Notes under the pieces: generated by a model | Databases searched by the model: none | Seen by the model: only the letters and a program-made list of their open reading frames with translations | What the model was told of the DNA's origin: nothing | Shown: positions 12,984 through 19,689 of the stretch, one piece after another | How positions within the stretch are numbered: the first letter of the stretch is position 1 | How the letters are laid out: every line of letters starts with the position of its first letter | Position numbers and translations under genes: made by a program | Source of the DNA: Oligoflexales bacterium | Lineage (GTDB): Bacteria; Bdellovibrionota_B; Oligoflexia; Oligoflexales; RGVZ01 | Reading direction: 5' to 3' | NCBI GenBank assembly: GCA_947476525.1 | Contig: CANJQY010000006.1 | Location: forward strand, 1-39,457 | DNA length: 39,457 nt

Positions 12984-14471
12984 ATGGCTAACATTCTTAT
13001 CATCGACCACCTTCAAGCGCAGCGCGTCGAACTAATAAACATTTTCACCAAGCTAAATCATACTGCCACAGAAGCTTGGGATGGCTCAAACGCCGCTCAC
13101 AAAACGGATCAAATAAAATACGACCTGATAATTTCTAACGCTGAAATTACCAAACTCACAATCGTAGACTTCATAAAATCACTTCGAATCGGTAAAATGA
13201 ACCGGCAGACTCCCGTATTCATCTATTCTAAAGCGTTTGACGAGGCATTAGTTTCGACACTCGGAAAATTTTCGCGCGTTCAATTCGTCAATTTGCCAAT
13301 CGACGGGGCCGCGTTAGCTGCCAAGATCACCGTAACGTTCAAGTCCGTCGAAGCGGTTGTGCGCGAGCAAAGCGTTCAAAAAAAAATCTACACGTTTTCA
13401 AAAGCCTCTCTAGAAAAGTGTGCCAAAGTTCCTGCGTCTACTGTTGACACTGATTTTTTCCGATTCTTTCCCGACATGTTGGGTCAAATCGACCCCTCCA
13501 CAGTCAATTTTGGTATCTGGCTCAAGGGCACCAATGATCTTTTGGAATACATTGGCGCCAAATTTACTGGCCCTGAAAATGTAAAAAACGCGGCAGATAT
13601 ATCCGCCGCCTTAAAAAGGGCTAACGTTGGTTTGGAAATATATGTGCGTATTTCCGATAAAGAAAAATTCTATGCGCACGTCCAAAAAAAGCGGCTGGCG
13701 CACCTTGGAACCAAGAATTTGCAGGACTCAAATCGCGAGGCAGCCGAAATATTTAATAAATTGACTATGTGTGCATCACGGTTTACCGCTGCTGATGTTG
13801 ATCAACAAGTTATAACGTCGGCAGAACAAATTTCGATGGACATGATGCAACGCATGACCGACAAACCTGACCTCATGAATATGCTTATCGACCTGCTCCG
13901 TAAGGATAATGCCATGTTTGATTTTGTTGCGATGGTCACCATCACCGCAGTTTCGATCGGTCAACGGCTCGGCCTAAAAGACATCGTTTTGAAAAAGCTC
14001 TCCCTTGGCTGCTTTTTTCATGATATCGGCTTAGCGCTACTCAATATGCCTCTGATTATAGACCGAGAGATGACTGCCGATGAAATGAACGTCTATAGGG
14101 ATCACCCGAGTACGGGGACTGATCATTTAAACATGCTAGAGGTAAAGGGCATTAATTTACCCGAGGAAGTTTTCTTGATCATGATGCAGCACCATGAGAA
14201 ATTTAATGGTACAGGCTTTCCGAATCAAAAGGCTGGACGAATGTCGAAGGAAAACCCAACCGGCATTCACCTTCTCGCTGCGATTGTCGCCGTTGCCGAC
14301 CGATTCGCCGGTTACGTTTTAAACGAGTCAAAAAATGGGACCATTGATCAATCAAGAATCGTCGCCGCCATGCACCGACTCACTGGGGAGTTCGACCCTG
14401 GGGTCCTCAAAGCGCTAAAAGAAGTCTTCGCAACAACCCGCCAGGGTAAGGTGAACTGGAAGCCGACGTGA
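12984..14471 (+). CDS. Degenerate receiver / HD-GYP-family protein
   Basis: The 495-residue protein begins with a receiver-like domain (residues 1-125). The expected phosphoacceptor aspartate is Asn52 (DLIISNAEI) and the acidic pocket is reduced (LIIDH), so it is probably not phosphorylated. A middle region of about 150 residues follows. The C-terminal HD-GYP-type phosphohydrolase domain has HD at 346-347, a later HPSTGTDH and HHEKFNGTGFP at 403-413. The family's GYP is GFP here and the Asp of DGxGYP is Asn408. HD-GYP proteins hydrolyse cyclic di-GMP. Bdellovibrio Bd1817 is a known member without the tyrosine, so loss of Tyr does not by itself imply inactivity. The last seven codons lie in the 46-bp repeat that bounds the inserted island, so the C-terminus may have been altered by that event. 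Confidence 0.85.
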   Translation: MANILIIDHLQAQRVELINIFTKLNHTATEAWDGSNAAHKTDQIKYDLIISNAEITKLTIVDFIKSLRIGKMNRQTPVFIYSKAFDEALVSTLGKFSRVQFVNLPIDGAALAAKITVTFKSVEAVVREQSVQKKIYTFSKASLEKCAKVPASTVDTDFFRFFPDMLGQIDPSTVNFGIWLKGTNDLLEYIGAKFTGPENVKNAADISAALKRANVGLEIYVRISDKEKFYAHVQKKRLAHLGTKNLQDSNREAAEIFNKLTMCASRFTAADVDQQVITSAEQISMDMMQRMTDKPDLMNMLIDLLRKDNAMFDFVAMVTITAVSIGQRLGLKDIVLKKLSLGCFFHDIGLALLNMPLIIDREMTADEMNVYRDHPSTGTDHLNMLEVKGINLPEEVFLIMMQHHEKFNGTGFPNQKAGRMSKENPTGIHLLAAIVAVADRFAGYVLNESKNGTIDQSRIVAAMHRLTGEFDPGVLKALKEVFATTRQGKVNWKPT

Positions 14472-14493
14472 GTGGCTCAACCTATAGATCGTA
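14448..14493 (+). repeat. 46-bp direct repeat, left copy (island boundary)
   Basis: These 46 bases are identical to 18983-19028. The left copy contains the last seven codons and stop of the HD-GYP gene and ends exactly at the tip of the left arm of the hairpin seen intact at 19018-19051. It marks the left end of the inserted segment. Confidence 0.97.
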
Positions 14494-14634
14494 CGATTGC
14501 GTCGGGTTTGCGCGAGCGCCATAGCTAGGAGACTGTGTCGGCTGAGTGCCATCACGCAGGCCTGGAGAGCTAAGGAACTGCACATTCTGTGCGACGATTT
14601 CTGTTTGGTATCGCTTCTGGCCACTTTGCTTATC
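14494..14634 (-). pseudogene. ssb: Internal fragment of ssb
   Basis: These 141 bases match 19285-19425 of the intact ssb without gaps and with four mismatches. They encode SSB residues 89-135 (DKQSGQKRYQTEIV through NPTQS), lacking the whole OB-fold and the acidic tip. Three of the four differences are synonymous; the fourth changes Gln114 to Leu. The fragment lies within a 69-codon open frame on the minus strand (14482-14691), with unrelated residues at either end, and is probably not functional. It directly abuts the left 46-bp repeat, so it is part of the recombination scar. Confidence 0.93.
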
Positions 14635-14917: not shown

Positions 14918-15022
14918 ATGAGTAAGGCACAATTGATTGAAGCGATGTTGGCTAAGGCAGAAGAACAAATTGACGAGAAGGTTTGTTATTCCAATGATTT
15001 CTGCGGCGCAACATCCAACTAA
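14918..15022 (+). CDS. Candidate RiPP precursor peptide, 34 residues
   Basis: This short gene encodes a 34-residue peptide. Residues 1-21 form an amphipathic, Glu-rich, helix-prone leader (MSKAQLIEAML, then KAEEQIDEK). Residues 22-34 form a different tail, VCYSNDFCGATSN, with cysteines at 23 and 29. TAAGGAG lies seven bases before the ATG, a very strong ribosome binding site, and a perfect hairpin follows the stop. It is the first gene of an operon with two oxygenases and an exporter. Acidic leader, polar Cys-containing core and strong translation are typical of RiPP precursors. That it is cleaved and modified is inference; no classical cleavage motif such as GG is visible. It could alternatively be a source of an excised amino-acid-derived cofactor, as PqqA is. 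Confidence 0.7.
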   Translation: MSKAQLIEAMLAKAEEQIDEKVCYSNDFCGATSN

Positions 15023-15032
15023 AAAGGATGAC

Positions 15033-15055
15033 AGGAGGGCCTAACAGGCCCTCCT
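15033..15055 (+). terminator. Perfect hairpin between peptide gene and enzymes
   Basis: AGGAGGGCCT at 15033-15042 pairs perfectly with AGGCCCTCCT at 15046-15055 across an AAC loop. No T-tract follows, so it is not a full intrinsic terminator. It most likely acts as a partial terminator or as an RNA-stabilising 3' hairpin that makes peptide mRNA more abundant than enzyme mRNA, as is common in peptide operons. Confidence 0.75.
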
Positions 15056-15079
15056 CCATTCTATCCGGAGTTTTCTCAA

Positions 15080-15604
15080 ATGCGCTGCGATAAATATTTA
15101 GCTCTATCTTATCAGAACTCAGACATTATAAGCAGTTTTCTTGATTCCTATGAGTTGACGAATCAAGAAGCTCAGGAAATTTTTGAAGAAACAAAAAAAT
15201 GGATTTATCTTTGCGCGCTCGCGCGAGAAAAATCGCGTGATCTTCATGAGAATGCGCCAAGAAGCCTTTCCATCGATAAAAATCTCATCATAGTTGATGA
15301 GATGTGGCATACCTTTATCCTCTTCACCAATGAATACTCGGCGTATTGCAATAGAGCCTTTGGCTCCTATCTTCATCATCAACCACAAACGGCCAGCGCT
15401 AACCTCGCAGCTAAAGCCGAATATGCTAAAGATCCCCAAGCCATTCAAGCGCGCAAACGAGAGGATCTTCGCGCGCAATATGAATTTATCTATGATCATC
15501 TGGGAGCTGGTACTTTGAGCAAATGGTACGAAGAGTACTCTGAAAAATACACTCCCCAGTATATTGGCAGTCGTTGCCGGAAATATCGGGAGGCTTCCCA
15601 ATGA
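15080..15604 (+). CDS. GRDP-like (WH...HH motif) protein of the peptide operon
   Basis: The 174-residue soluble protein carries a motif at residues 72-101, VDEMWHTFILF then YCNRAFGSYLHHQP, that recalls the plant/bacterial glycine-rich-domain-containing-protein-like family (VDxMWHxxLL...FG...HH). Trp76-His77 and His99-His100 would be well placed to bind a metal or cofactor. Residues 1-60 are helical and charged; the C-terminus (120-174) is rich in Arg, Glu and Tyr. There is no signal peptide or membrane segment. It starts 57 bases after the peptide stop, with a TCCGGAG-type ribosome binding site, and its stop overlaps the next gene (ATGA). The role is unknown; position suggests peptide binding or a modification step. 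Confidence 0.75.
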   Translation: MRCDKYLALSYQNSDIISSFLDSYELTNQEAQEIFEETKKWIYLCALAREKSRDLHENAPRSLSIDKNLIIVDEMWHTFILFTNEYSAYCNRAFGSYLHHQPQTASANLAAKAEYAKDPQAIQARKREDLRAQYEFIYDHLGAGTLSKWYEEYSEKYTPQYIGSRCRKYREASQ

Positions 15605-16212
15605 AAACTATAGAAATACGTGAAGCTTTGTCTGATCGCGGTTTTTTTCAAATGAAACATCCTTGCGAATATACTGACTTTCTTGCCACCGCAAATGTGC
15701 TCGGAACTGTATTTGCAACAGCAGATGTCAAAATACACGCGAAAAGCCACTCCATGGTTTCTACTCCCAGCTCTGTGCCATTTCACAATGACGATCCACG
15801 CGCTCGCTATATCGGTTGGTTCTGTGTGGAACAAGATGAGCATTCTGGCGAAAGTCAATACATCGATTCGCGTCGAGCTTTGAAAAGACTAAATGAATCC
15901 GATTTGCACCTCTTGGAAGAAACGTTTGTTAAATGTCCAGGCACCGATGGAGTGGTTTCTAAACATCCGGTCCTATTTAAACGAGAAGGCGAACGGCAAG
16001 GCTTTTATTTCGCACCGTGGCTCGTTGAAGAATCAGACAAAAGCACCACAGCACTTTTGAATTTGACAACGGCGCTCAGGCAAACAGCGAGGGTCAAAAT
16101 CCGCCTTCGCCCCGGCGAGATGATCTTTATCGATAATCATCGGCTTTTGCACGGCCGCGACGCTTTAGACACATCAAGCAATAGGTATTTGAAAAGGGCA
16201 TGGATTTTATGA
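15601..16212 (+). CDS. TauD-like Fe(II)/2-oxoglutarate oxygenase A
   Basis: This 203-residue protein belongs by motif to the TauD/clavaminate-synthase-like non-haem iron oxygenases, which use 2-oxoglutarate and O2 to hydroxylate or otherwise oxidise a substrate. The iron facial triad is visible as His62-Asn63-Asp64 in FHNDD and His184 in DNHRLLHGR. The RYLKRAWI end supplies the arginine usually holding the 2-oxoglutarate carboxylate. It is short for the family (TauD is about 280 residues), so lid regions may be reduced. I start it at the ATG at 15601: GGGAGG lies seven bases upstream and the start overlaps the previous stop. It is followed by a paralogue, again with an ATGA overlap. The peptide encoded upstream is the likely substrate, by inference. 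Confidence 0.85.
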   Translation: MKTIEIREALSDRGFFQMKHPCEYTDFLATANVLGTVFATADVKIHAKSHSMVSTPSSVPFHNDDPRARYIGWFCVEQDEHSGESQYIDSRRALKRLNESDLHLLEETFVKCPGTDGVVSKHPVLFKREGERQGFYFAPWLVEESDKSTTALLNLTTALRQTARVKIRLRPGEMIFIDNHRLLHGRDALDTSSNRYLKRAWIL

Positions 16213-16853
16213 ATCAAGAAATCTTAGACACACTGGCAAGGGAAGGCTACTTCCATTTAACAGGAAATTACTCGCAAAGCGGCTATAATGAAGTTTGTAA
16301 GGCTTTGGGCTATCTGATTTCTCGTCTTGAAGTCCGCCTTGATAAAAGTAAACGACAATTGGTTTTCAAGGCCGAACCTATTGGCTTACACAATGACAGT
16401 CCAGATGTTGATGTCATCGCTTGGTATTGCGTAACCGCAGATCAAGATCAAGGCCAAGGCGCAACGGATTTCATCGATACCATAGATCTTGAACTCCGCC
16501 TTTCAAAAGAAGACCAGGTGGTTCTTTGTGGTTTAAAATTGCACCGCCGTATTCGAGATACTGAGACCTTCGTTTCAAGTGCGGTCCTTGAGAGGGTAGG
16601 TGGGCACTACAAAGTATTTTTTGCGCCTTGGCTGTTGCGCCCGGGGTACTCAGCAGAAGAACAGTCCGCATTGGATAATTTGCGTAACTATTTTGATAGC
16701 CAACCAAAGAAAAGCATCCGGATGAATCCAGGCGAGATTGTGATTGTAGACAATCACCGCATCCTCCACGGCCGATCGTCGATTTCTGAAGAAAGTCAAA
16801 GGCATTTAACAAGAACATGGATCAAATCCCCTTGTTCCAAAGAAGCGAGGTAA
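16209..16853 (+). CDS. TauD-like Fe(II)/2-oxoglutarate oxygenase B
   Basis: The 214-residue product is a paralogue of the preceding oxygenase with the same architecture. The triad is His61-Asn62-Asp63 (LHNDSPD) with His187 in DNHRILHGRSS, and the distal RHLTRTWIK has the expected basic residue. Both proteins share the FAPWL segment and the RxxPGE(I/M)xxxDNHRxLHGR end, but the N-terminal halves are diverged, so the two probably act on different positions or substrates. The start could be 16200 or 16209. I prefer 16209, which gives an ATGA overlap like the other junction and leaves AAAGGG at a workable distance. The stop lies three bases before the exporter start. Confidence 0.85.
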   Translation: MNQEILDTLAREGYFHLTGNYSQSGYNEVCKALGYLISRLEVRLDKSKRQLVFKAEPIGLHNDSPDVDVIAWYCVTADQDQGQGATDFIDTIDLELRLSKEDQVVLCGLKLHRRIRDTETFVSSAVLERVGGHYKVFFAPWLLRPGYSAEEQSALDNLRNYFDSQPKKSIRMNPGEIVIVDNHRILHGRSSISEESQRHLTRTWIKSPCSKEAR

Positions 16854-16856
16854 ATT

Positions 16857-18164
16857 ATGAATTGGCGCGCATTTTTTTCGGTTTTAACTCCGATACTTCT
16901 CACGTTTATCAGCGGTCGTTTGATTCAACAAACAGATATTTTGATGCTTTCTTCCTTAGGCGTAGCCGCGCGCGCAGCCCTTGTCATACCAACAAACATC
17001 ATGCTTTTGGATGCCATTTTTGGCTTTGCGATGGCGCCCGTTATTTCGGTGCATTTAGGCAGATTTCGCGACGATAAGAATTTAGACTTCGAAGTAAAAC
17101 GCTGCCTAAGGTTTTGCGCCAGTTGCAGCTTGATTTTAGTGTTGCTTGGCCTTCTGCTTTATCCATTCCTTGTTAAAATGACGGCGACCAACGTTGAAGT
17201 CCTCGCCTTGGCAAAAGATGCAACGTTTTGGTTGACACTTGCGATTCCGGGTCGTTTGATCCAGTTTGGCGCGGCCATGGCTTTGCACGGACTTGGTCGC
17301 GGCAAAGAATTAATTAAATGGTCGTTACTTGCAGTGACTTTGAACGCGCTCCTAAACTGGATACTCATTTTTGGTTTCAACCTTGGTTTCAAAGGCTCTT
17401 ACATAAGTACTTTCGCTGTCACGTGGTTGTCTTTGGGTTGGACCTTACTTCTTCTTGGAAAATCCTATTTTGGTTTTTATCTTTTCAATCCGCCAGATTG
17501 GGAATGGTCGCGTAGCTTTTTAAAACAAGTCCTCGCTGAATTTTCGCGGATTTGCTCTGGCCAAATGGCAGGCTTTGTTTCGCTTTTTCTTTATGGCTTA
17601 GGCTCTTTAGCAATGGAGAAGCTTAGTGTTTTCGGTGTTGCATGTGCTTTGGAAAATTTGATTTTTGTGCCTTTTTTGGCGACCACGCGCGCATCAAGCA
17701 TCTACCTAGCTCGTCAAAATAATATCAAAGATCCAGCCGAAACACTAAAGCCAGTCAAACTATGGGGATTTGCACTTTGTTGCCTTATCGTCATCACGAT
17801 CTTGGTTTTCGCAGAACCGATCGGTAAAAATCTTTATCATTTAGATGGTGAAGCTCTGCGTTGGTGGAAAATCTATTCGATTTTCCTCGCGTTTCAATTG
17901 CCCGTTAGTTTTCTAAATACTTTATCCAAATCGATTTGGCAGTATCGCGCCAAATTCAATCTGGTTAGCCGCATCGACATCGTTTTGTGCTGGTTTGTTT
18001 TAATGCCCGTTTTATCGCTAGGAAGCTACTTCGACAACCCATGGTTAACATGGAGTGCGTACGGGCTTATGACCTTTGGTACCTGGGCTTGGTTGAGGAT
18101 CGCCGAGTTTCGTCTAAATCAGTCGCCGAAGACAAATTTAAGCGCGGCAGTTATAGCTGCTTAG
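16857..18164 (+). CDS. MATE-family efflux transporter
   Basis: The 435-residue protein has about twelve hydrophobic segments in two MatE-type halves. The first half contains RLIQQTDILMLSSLG and later IPTNIMLLDAIFGFAMAPV; the second has SGQMAGFVSLFLYGLGSLAMEKL. These are typical of MATE exporters, which extrude small molecules in exchange for Na+ or H+. AGCGAGG lies seven bases before the ATG, three bases after oxygenase B, so it is the last gene of the operon. Peptide or metallophore export by MATE proteins is known (methanobactin clusters carry one). By context it would export the mature product. Its 3' end overlaps the convergent acetyltransferase gene by 14 bases. Confidence 0.88.
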   Translation: MNWRAFFSVLTPILLTFISGRLIQQTDILMLSSLGVAARAALVIPTNIMLLDAIFGFAMAPVISVHLGRFRDDKNLDFEVKRCLRFCASCSLILVLLGLLLYPFLVKMTATNVEVLALAKDATFWLTLAIPGRLIQFGAAMALHGLGRGKELIKWSLLAVTLNALLNWILIFGFNLGFKGSYISTFAVTWLSLGWTLLLLGKSYFGFYLFNPPDWEWSRSFLKQVLAEFSRICSGQMAGFVSLFLYGLGSLAMEKLSVFGVACALENLIFVPFLATTRASSIYLARQNNIKDPAETLKPVKLWGFALCCLIVITILVFAEPIGKNLYHLDGEALRWWKIYSIFLAFQLPVSFLNTLSKSIWQYRAKFNLVSRIDIVLCWFVLMPVLSLGSYFDNPWLTWSAYGLMTFGTWAWLRIAEFRLNQSPKTNLSAAVIAA

Positions 18165-18702
18165 CAATCATATGCTCATCGTAATAAGTGCCATTGATTA
18201 AAAAAGAAGACCGACGAGTTCCCTCGATTAGAAAGCCAGATTTTTCATAAAGTCTAACACCGTGCGAGTTATCGACACGAACAGAAGCCTCGATTCTAGT
18301 TACGTCAACGCTGCCGGCAAAGGCAAACATTGTTTGCAGCATTTTTTGGCCTAGTCCTTGCCCCCAATAGGGTTTCAAAATCATCATAGCAAAATAACCG
18401 ACGTGCTTACACCAAGGATGGTTTCCTCTGGCTTTTCCAAACATCAGATGACCGATAAGTTCTGATTCATTAAACGCGCCAAGCAAAAATTCATCTCTCG
18501 ACGCTGCCGCTGCATTCCAACGCTCACTAATCTTAGCTTCTGGTGGGTTTGGCTCTCCAGGATAGCGAAGAGTGTAGTTACTATCGTCGGCGACCTGCGA
18601 AAAAAAACCGACAAATAGCGGCGCGTCGGTGCCATTAAGATTTCGAAGCGTTACGGGACGATCGTCTTTTAATTTAACCTCTTCTGTTCTCCACTCGGTC
18701 AT
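18151..18702 (-). CDS. GNAT-family N-acetyltransferase
   Basis: The 183-residue protein is a GCN5-related acetyltransferase of the RimJ/RimL-like kind. The acetyl-CoA motif is YWGQGLGQKM, after the MMILKP beta strand, and VRLYEKSGFLIEGTRRSSF is the usual C-terminal alpha/beta element. It would transfer acetyl from acetyl-CoA to an amine of a small molecule, peptide or protein. It is convergent with the MATE exporter and lies inside the repeat-bounded island, so it travelled with the peptide operon. It could tailor or detoxify the product, but that is only a contextual guess. GGGTGAAGG precedes the start. Confidence 0.88.
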   Translation of the reverse strand: MTEWRTEEVKLKDDRPVTLRNLNGTDAPLFVGFFSQVADDSNYTLRYPGEPNPPEAKISERWNAAAASRDEFLLGAFNESELIGHLMFGKARGNHPWCKHVGYFAMMILKPYWGQGLGQKMLQTMFAFAGSVDVTRIEASVRVDNSHGVRLYEKSGFLIEGTRRSSFLINGTYYDEHMIAKQL

Positions 18703-18792: not shown

Positions 18793-19011
18793 TCACCGCA
18801 TGCTTGGGAGTATCGGGGAGATTAGGGGGCGCCCTGCTGCGCGGGAGCCACCTGAACGATATCGGACCTTTTTCTTTTCGAGAGTTTTCAAGAGGCCAAA
18901 AGTTAGCACCATCATGACTGCAGGCAACCAGTAAGCCACACCGAATCCCCAGACTGCTGCCATCTTTCCCATGACATAGTGCAAGGTGAACTGGAAGCCG
19001 ACGTGAGTGGC
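18793..19011 (-). pseudogene. Truncated C-terminal fragment of a membrane protein
   Basis: An open frame of 72 codons without its own credible start reads GFQFTLHYVMGKMAAVWGFG followed by a hydrophobic helix (AYWLPAVMMVLTFGLL) and a basic KTLEKKKVRYR tail. It looks like the last one or two membrane helices of a larger protein. The pattern with a WLP in the last helix recalls LptF/LptG-type permeases, but the identification is weak. Upstream it runs into the right 46-bp repeat and a stop codon, so the rest of the gene is missing. It is best read as debris carried at the right end of the island. A TTG at 18984 could start a 63-residue peptide, which I think is unlikely to be functional. Confidence 0.5.
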
Positions 19012-19028
19012 TCAACCTATAGATCGTA
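18983..19028 (+). repeat. 46-bp direct repeat, right copy (island boundary)
   Basis: This is identical to 14448-14493. Here the repeat is followed by the complete hairpin, ssb terminator and intact ssb, so the right copy probably represents the original 3' flank of the HD-GYP gene. It closes the inserted segment of about 4.5 kb. Confidence 0.97.
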
Positions 19029-19161: not shown

Positions 19162-19689
19162 TCAAAACGGAATATCATCTAGACCAGAAGTTTCAGGTCC
19201 ACCGTAACCCATGGATCCAGATGAACTCATGGGCGTGCCAATGTCAAACTCCGGAATCGATGGAGAGGCTCCGTAGCCAGGAGCCGATTGCGTCGGGTTT
19301 GCGCGAGCGCCATAGCTAGGAGACTGTGTCGGCTGAGTGCCGTCACGCTGGCCTGGAGAGCTAAGGAACTGCACATTCTGTGCGACGATTTCTGTTTGGT
19401 AACGCTTCTGGCCGCTTTGCTTATCGTCCCAAGAACGAGTCTGTAGACGGCCTTCGACAAAAACGGTGCGGCCTTTCACAAGAAATTTAGCGCAATTTTC
19501 TGCTACCTTGCTCCAAACAACTACGCGATGCCACTCGGTCGTTTCTTGGCGCTGCCCGTCGGCGCCTGTCTTGTAGTCGGTTGTTGCCACATTGAAAGTC
19601 GCCACTGGTGTTTGATTTGCGGTGTATCGTAGTTCGGGGTCTTGTCCCAAGTTTCCGATTATCATCACACGGTTGAGTGAGCCTGCCAT
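19162..19689 (-). CDS. ssb: Single-stranded DNA-binding protein
   Basis: The 175-residue SSB coats single-stranded DNA during replication, repair and recombination. The OB-fold covers residues 1-108 (MAGSLNRVMIIGNLGQDPELR, then WHRVVVWSKVAE and VFVEGRLQTRSW). A Gly/Pro/Ser/Gln-rich linker follows, and the acidic tip DDIPF, which recruits partner proteins, ends it. I chose the ATG at 19689, with GGAGG six bases upstream; the frame stays open to 19767 but that extension is not SSB-like. Residues 89-135 are duplicated at 14494-14634 beyond the island. A strong terminator follows the gene. Confidence 0.97.
   Translation of the reverse strand: MAGSLNRVMIIGNLGQDPELRYTANQTPVATFNVATTDYKTGADGQRQETTEWHRVVVWSKVAENCAKFLVKGRTVFVEGRLQTRSWDDKQSGQKRYQTEIVAQNVQFLSSPGQRDGTQPTQSPSYGARANPTQSAPGYGASPSIPEFDIGTPMSSSGSMGYGGPETSGLDDIPF

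Follow-up and report, generated by a model that had tools for sequence, protein, structure and literature searches.

What does a five-gene operon that runs from a 34-residue peptide to a MATE exporter make, and does it belong to a known kind of biosynthetic system? The operon lies in a stretch of 39,457 nucleotides (the window) from an Oligoflexales bacterium (contig CANJQY010000006.1), and the first-pass annotation had proposed that it specifies a new type of ribosomally synthesised and post-translationally modified peptide (RiPP). All five co-directional genes are present at 14918-18164 as one unit, those after the hairpin joined by ATGA overlaps or a three-base gap as that annotation described, and they comprise what is expected of a RiPP pathway, namely an encoded precursor with a conserved leader and a variable core, together with co-encoded candidate maturation proteins and an exporter. 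In our view the operon probably encodes a RiPP pathway whose class is apparently undescribed and is defined by a short precursor (KxxLIxxLLxK leader, Cys core) and a 174-residue protein, here termed the GRDP-fold protein. A new class is likely, and the earlier statement that no described RiPP class combines GRDP-like with paired TauD-like enzymes agrees with the curated libraries and literature searched, in which none was found; queries on the gene combination, the core sequences and pHUSEC41-3 returned nothing on this system, in searches that covered few subscription journals.

The first step towards an answer is to ask where else the peptide and the 174-residue protein occur together. When 96 genomes were searched, homologues of the 174-residue protein were found in four others; close homologues of both precursor and GRDP-fold protein are carried by G043 and G044, and more distant GRDP homologues by G042, G010, G051 and G032. 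No close relatives of the whole operon were found in the same class, and the TauD matches obtained elsewhere are to isolated, distantly related genes. A scan seeded by a pattern and covering one genome per species, in which the loci listed are a lower bound, gave 93 relatives, with at least 79 loci kept, distributed among Bacteroidota, Pseudomonadota, Cyanobacteriota and Bdellovibrionota, marine bacteria included, and a plasmid search with the same family found mobilizable E. coli plasmids of ~7.9 kb and one Aureibacter plasmid.

Most of these loci carry a short open reading frame (ORF) with the leader KxxLIxxLLxK and a variable core containing two or more Cys, and Cys is present in all cores found. 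The strict motif occurs upstream at 46 of 82 loci, compared with none of the 82 reverse strands and none of 1640 dinucleotide shuffles; the hit rate is descriptive, the motif having been composed after inspection of the same loci, while the reverse-strand and shuffle rates gauge how rarely such a leader arises by chance. When the motif is relaxed and both flanks of the GRDP gene are counted, 58 of 84 loci have it, compared with 6 on the reverse strand. For example, a short Cys-containing ORF stands directly 5' of the GRDP gene in G043 (MKKSDFIAKLLLERKNLIKSKNSWCPGHACFAINK) and G044 (MVTIKSEFIRKPVEERKLVLEKNNKITCCGIDLCLHMK), a Fulvivirga precursor reads MKTNKEALISRILADKATKAVGGTHCSNCGHCTSTL, and that of a member of the Saprospiraceae (Bacteroidota; L020), MSKAQLIDSLIKKNTKGGGKSDPPPFCLGGCS, has a start matching MSKAQLIE of the window peptide, with four synonymous differences in the first 8 codons. 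The window peptide is not a chance ORF, since its leader is found again, in company with the same family of proteins, across several phyla. The first-pass annotation had named as refuting its proposal a short ORF that is absent or not conserved in relatives; the ORF recurs, and the ratios of non-synonymous to synonymous polymorphism (pN/pS) of the precursors in three clades (0.24, 0.21 and 0.49) correspond to purifying selection. The precursor thus evolves as a protein, the pair of precursor and GRDP-fold protein is conserved across phyla, and the RiPP proposal is supported by precursor-like ORFs with a common leader and a variable Cys core beside the 174-residue family in most of the 84 loci.

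The position of the precursor varies. In Pseudoalteromonas it lies downstream of the GRDP gene, and the GRDP homologues of E. coli plasmids, Kosakonia and Azotobacter bear the Cys core themselves, as a fused C-terminal tail (e.g. VCGCSGKGCGAGCSCNSR). These arrangements bear on a quite different explanation, by which the short ORF would be a regulatory leader peptide with an attenuator hairpin, the TauD enzymes would act as hydroxylases of a free amino acid or a compound of that kind, to be exported by the MATE protein. TauD relatives with solved structures do act on small molecules, and a stable hairpin, equalled by none of 200 shuffles, directly follows the ORF. However, the short ORF is kept as a protein across phyla, may stand before or after the GRDP gene and in some lineages forms one gene with it, and since a transcriptional leader peptide would show none of these properties, we give this explanation very little credence. 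As for the hairpin itself, it has no U-run and so has the appearance of an element for processing or attenuation and not of a strong terminator.

If the operon is a RiPP operon, the nature of the GRDP-fold protein becomes the central issue. Neither the peptide nor the 174-residue protein matched anything above cut-off in Pfam, and the 174-residue family falls outside every model of Pfam, NCBIfam and PHROGs. An AlphaFold model built from 51 sequences is all-helical (predicted local distance difference test, pLDDT, 95.1; predicted template modelling score, pTM, 0.89), and its best match in BFVD is a 'Glycine-rich domain-containing protein-like' protein of Harvfovirus (probability 1.00, E 0.026, TM 0.43-0.52). 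The Pfam profile PF07173 matched none of the 51 family members at E up to 1, and membership of Pfam GRDP at the sequence level was rejected. The label 'GRDP-like' of the first-pass annotation is therefore plausible as a fold resemblance in the predicted model, not as Pfam membership. The PF07173 proteins of plants and giant viruses appear to share with the window-type protein the fold of the predicted model and the WH...HH motif, whereas the bacterial subfamily is missed by their profile and is tied to precursors. We know of no biochemical role for GRDP-fold proteins. Within the family D73, W76, Y86, G142 and W149 do not vary, and H77, H99, H100 and P102 hardly do; the conserved D/W/H/HH positions cluster in sequence, and their conservation suggests that the aspartate and histidines may form a metal site.

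The genes around the conserved pair differ from lineage to lineage. In type A (28 loci) precursor and GRDP genes are accompanied by genes for a 306-residue beta-sandwich protein, a TonB receptor, DUF4374 and an ABC transporter; a PqqD-type leader-binding domain, suspected by eye in the 306-residue partner, is not supported, as the best hits of the partner's model were beta-sandwich proteins only. In type B (17-18 loci, including L021, L025, L032 and L036) they are followed by a large Y_Y_Y/HATPase sensor kinase, a proximity that suggests peptide signalling. Type C has HlyD-like and C39-type ABC exporters, recognised by motif only, and in type D the core-fused GRDP form is accompanied by a JmjC oxygenase (JmjC_2, 3e-21 in E. 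coli) and an ABC exporter. Four loci besides the window have TauD-family genes (L030, L081, L096 and, split, L058), among which only Arcicella L096, with the order MATE, TauD, precursor, GRDP, also has a MATE gene, while G044 has precursor and GRDP genes without another candidate enzyme nearby. In the tree type B forms one clade and type A nearly so, and the TauD-bearing members are scattered. The conserved unit is thus precursor and 174-residue protein, with the TauD pair and MATE exporter as variable accessories, and the simplest reading is that the former constitute the core and that the oxygenases are exchangeable. The first-pass claim of a precursor-enzymes-exporter set stands insofar as TauD recurs in four loci and MATE in one of them, but as a conserved unit it shrinks to the first two genes.

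Some of these neighbourhoods merit mention in their own right. L024 (5944-8760) and four sister Pseudoalteromonas loci contain the GRDP gene with the precursor MNKSKIINSLVNKNLERNKGARFCGCVICLVDRKPGVGPNNK downstream of it, together with genes for a putative methyltransferase and for a P450 that is weakly similar to the RiPP enzyme ApyO (1.7e-4). L009 (3605-6830; NZ_KU932034.1), L008 and L018 are small mobilizable E. coli plasmids on which the core-fused GRDP gene, the ABC exporter and the JmjC oxygenase are annotated as hypothetical, ABC and cupin proteins; a GRDP-fold gene is present in 25 E. coli plasmid records, in most of them under the name hypothetical protein only. The same core-fused set is found on genome contigs of Kosakonia (L082) and Azotobacter vinelandii (L065). 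In G043 (L120, 3123-6227) precursor and GRDP gene stand right behind EgtB-/EgtD-like genes (ergothioneine synthesis, by eye).

The constancy of the GRDP gene amid varying oxygenases (TauD, JmjC), P450 and transporters could also mean that the GRDP-fold protein is a leader-binding chaperone or carrier and not an enzyme, all the chemistry in the window being done by the two TauD oxygenases and elsewhere by other partners. Fusion of the core to the GRDP protein suits a carrier as well as an enzyme, and the searches gave no catalytic relative of the GRDP-fold protein. Yet G044 has the pair with no other candidate enzyme nearby, and the invariant or near-invariant D73, H77, H99 and H100 resemble a metal or catalytic site, not a peptide groove. 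On this balance we think a purely carrying role unlikely.

The remaining window genes invite comparison with known systems. The first-pass assignments of two TauD-like oxygenases and a MATE exporter were confirmed by Pfam (Table 1). The oxygenases, ~30% identical to each other and as a pair unique in their own genome, both retain H-N-D and the distal His (the HxD...H iron ligands). They share the Pfam TauD fold family and the Fe-binding HxD...H with TauD/TfdA oxygenases acting on amino acids (VioC, AsnO-type, TmpA), but are compact (~203-217 residues), paired, situated in a peptide operon and far below every equivalog cut-off. Among NCBIfam models the exporter is nearest to MbnM (NF045578; 1.8e-69, 234.8 bits with a cut-off of 285), with 85.8 bits for the generic MATE model. 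The system resembles methanobactin (MbnA, MbnB, MbnC, MbnM) in its short Cys-core precursor, in an exporter nearest to MbnM and in the oxidative metalloenzymes expected on the core, but differs in its leader and in the unrelated helical protein that partners the core. A search of the genome (88% complete) gave nothing for the MbnB family (PF05114), MbnC not having been searched by name, and on this absence of the MbnB family membership of the methanobactins was rejected. A methanobactin-like copper-binding peptide, in which Cys pairs would become copper ligands and the MbnM-like protein the exporter, could draw further on the two Cys of the core and on the TonB receptor and ABC genes beside relatives. 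Not only is PF05114 missing, however, but the exporter scores under the MbnM cut-off and neither a TonB receptor nor a copper gene was identified in the window, and we regard a copper peptide as decidedly improbable. Likewise, MNIO (DUF692) RiPPs (TglH, ChrH and bufferin pathways) are similar in their Cys-containing precursors and iron-type oxidative maturation, but the absence of PF05114 and the GRDP-fold protein as conserved partner set the window apart. RiPPs with C39-type ABC exporters and GG leaders find a counterpart in the GRDP loci L023, L037, L077 and L081, which have GG-type leaders and HlyD/C39-type ABC genes, whereas in the window the exporter is of the MATE type and a GG cleavage site is lacking.

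A lead to metal physiology comes instead from the Bacteroidota relatives. The palindrome TTGCAACANTGTTGCAA occurs ~240 bases 5' of the type A GRDP gene (e.g. L079, L084 and L090), within three mismatches at 19 of 27 type A loci compared with none of 55 other loci. Elsewhere in type A genomes the box is found at a Fur-family regulator adjoining a MerC protein (L130, L132), in L136 in the interval that separates the operon from a divergent COG0523/CobW GTPase, and also ahead of a TonB-type receptor and further genes, and genome-wide counts are small (4-8 sites per genome versus 1-2 for the reversed control). In view of what Fur-family and COG0523 genes generally do, these associations suggest a Zur-type zinc regulon, and hence that the type A peptide of these Bacteroidota may be a ribosomal zinc metallophore. 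Upstream of the window operon the box is absent (best match 6 mismatches), so that the hypothesis is confined to the relatives and we assign no metal role to the window peptide.

In the RiPP pathway that we propose, the GRDP-fold protein would bind the leader and act on the cysteines of the core by means of its conserved D/H/HH residues, which would probably hold a metal. In the window, core residues would next be hydroxylated or desaturated by the two TauD oxygenases, the leader would be removed by a protease encoded elsewhere, and the MbnM-like MATE protein would export the product, while the hairpin 3' of the precursor gene would serve to keep the precursor in excess over the enzymes. More tentatively, and with slightly less than even confidence, the GRDP-fold proteins could be new metal-dependent Cys-acting RiPP maturases with at least four uses: oxygenase-tailored exported peptides (window), Zur-type-regulated zinc metallophores in Bacteroidota (precursors ending HCSNCGHC), sensor-kinase-paired peptides and, on small E. 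coli plasmids, proteins in which enzyme and substrate are fused.

Besides the descriptive character of the motif count, several points weigh against the RiPP interpretation or its details. The exact TauD-TauD-MATE set was, among the loci scanned, seen only in the window, whose place in the tree is not resolved; comparison of the GRDP model with the PDB gave no matching solved structure; catalysis by the GRDP-fold protein is inferred from conservation only, and the product, its modification and leader binding are predictions. Among the Pfam matches of the window operon there is neither a leader peptidase nor a leader-binding (RRE) domain of known type; such a component is absent from many RiPP clusters and is not required. 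If the interpretation is right, the GRDP-fold protein and the KxxLIxxLLxK leader provide a computable handle on a RiPP class that is not described in the curated libraries or literature searched, spans at least four phyla and reaches small E. coli plasmids. It also raises testable questions about GRDP-fold proteins as metal enzymes, ribosomal zinc metallophores in Bacteroidota and the action of a TauD pair on a peptide.

Table 1. Features of the operon and of its boundaries in the window
Feature	Position	Strand	Remarks
Left boundary: HD-gene end joined to ssb fragment	14443-14493 (HD-gene end), 14494-14634 (ssb fragment)		Copies of both right of the operon
Precursor peptide gene, 34 residues	14918..15022	+	AAGGAG ribosome site 5'; full sequence MSKAQLIEAMLAKAEEQIDEKVCYSNDFCGATSN
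Precursor parts	14918..15022	+	Leader MSKAQLIEAMLAK..., core with two Cys (...VCYSNDFCGATSN)
Stable RNA hairpin, interval between precursor and GRDP genes	15025..15062	+	Minimum free energy -26.9 kcal/mol, z -4.57
GRDP-fold protein, 174 residues, class-defining partner	15080..15604	+	Conserved D73, W76, H77, Y86, H99, H100, P102, W149
TauD-family Fe(II)/2-oxoglutarate oxygenase 1, 203 residues	15601..16212	+	Pfam TauD 7.3e-19; HND and distal His; start overlaps the end of the 174-residue gene by ATGA
TauD-family Fe(II)/2-oxoglutarate oxygenase 2, 217 residues	16200..16853	+	Pfam TauD 1e-13; HND and distal His; alternative start ATG 16209 (214 residues), then ATGA overlap with oxygenase 1
MATE exporter	16857..18164	+	MatE 2.3e-19; three-base gap after oxygenase 2
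Right boundary: second copy of HD-gene end (96%)	18978..19028		Native ssb copy of the fragment at 19285-19425 (97%)

There remains the question of how the operon came to be in this genome. None of the other five genomes of the genus examined carries the GRDP gene, and in one genome of the same genus (G002) ssb lies next to the HD gene, whose protein is 85% identical, an arrangement that constitutes an empty site. In the window, the operon and a GNAT gene are enclosed by duplicates of the HD-gene end and of an ssb fragment. Judged from this arrangement, the operon is an acquisition by insertion between genes that are adjacent in the sister species, and the pattern fits homologous recombination, by which incoming DNA that contained a copy of the HD-ssb junction with a deletion may have been integrated. 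The GNAT acetyltransferase gene within the inserted segment (18151-18702, minus strand) is convergent with the exporter gene, which it overlaps by 14 bases.

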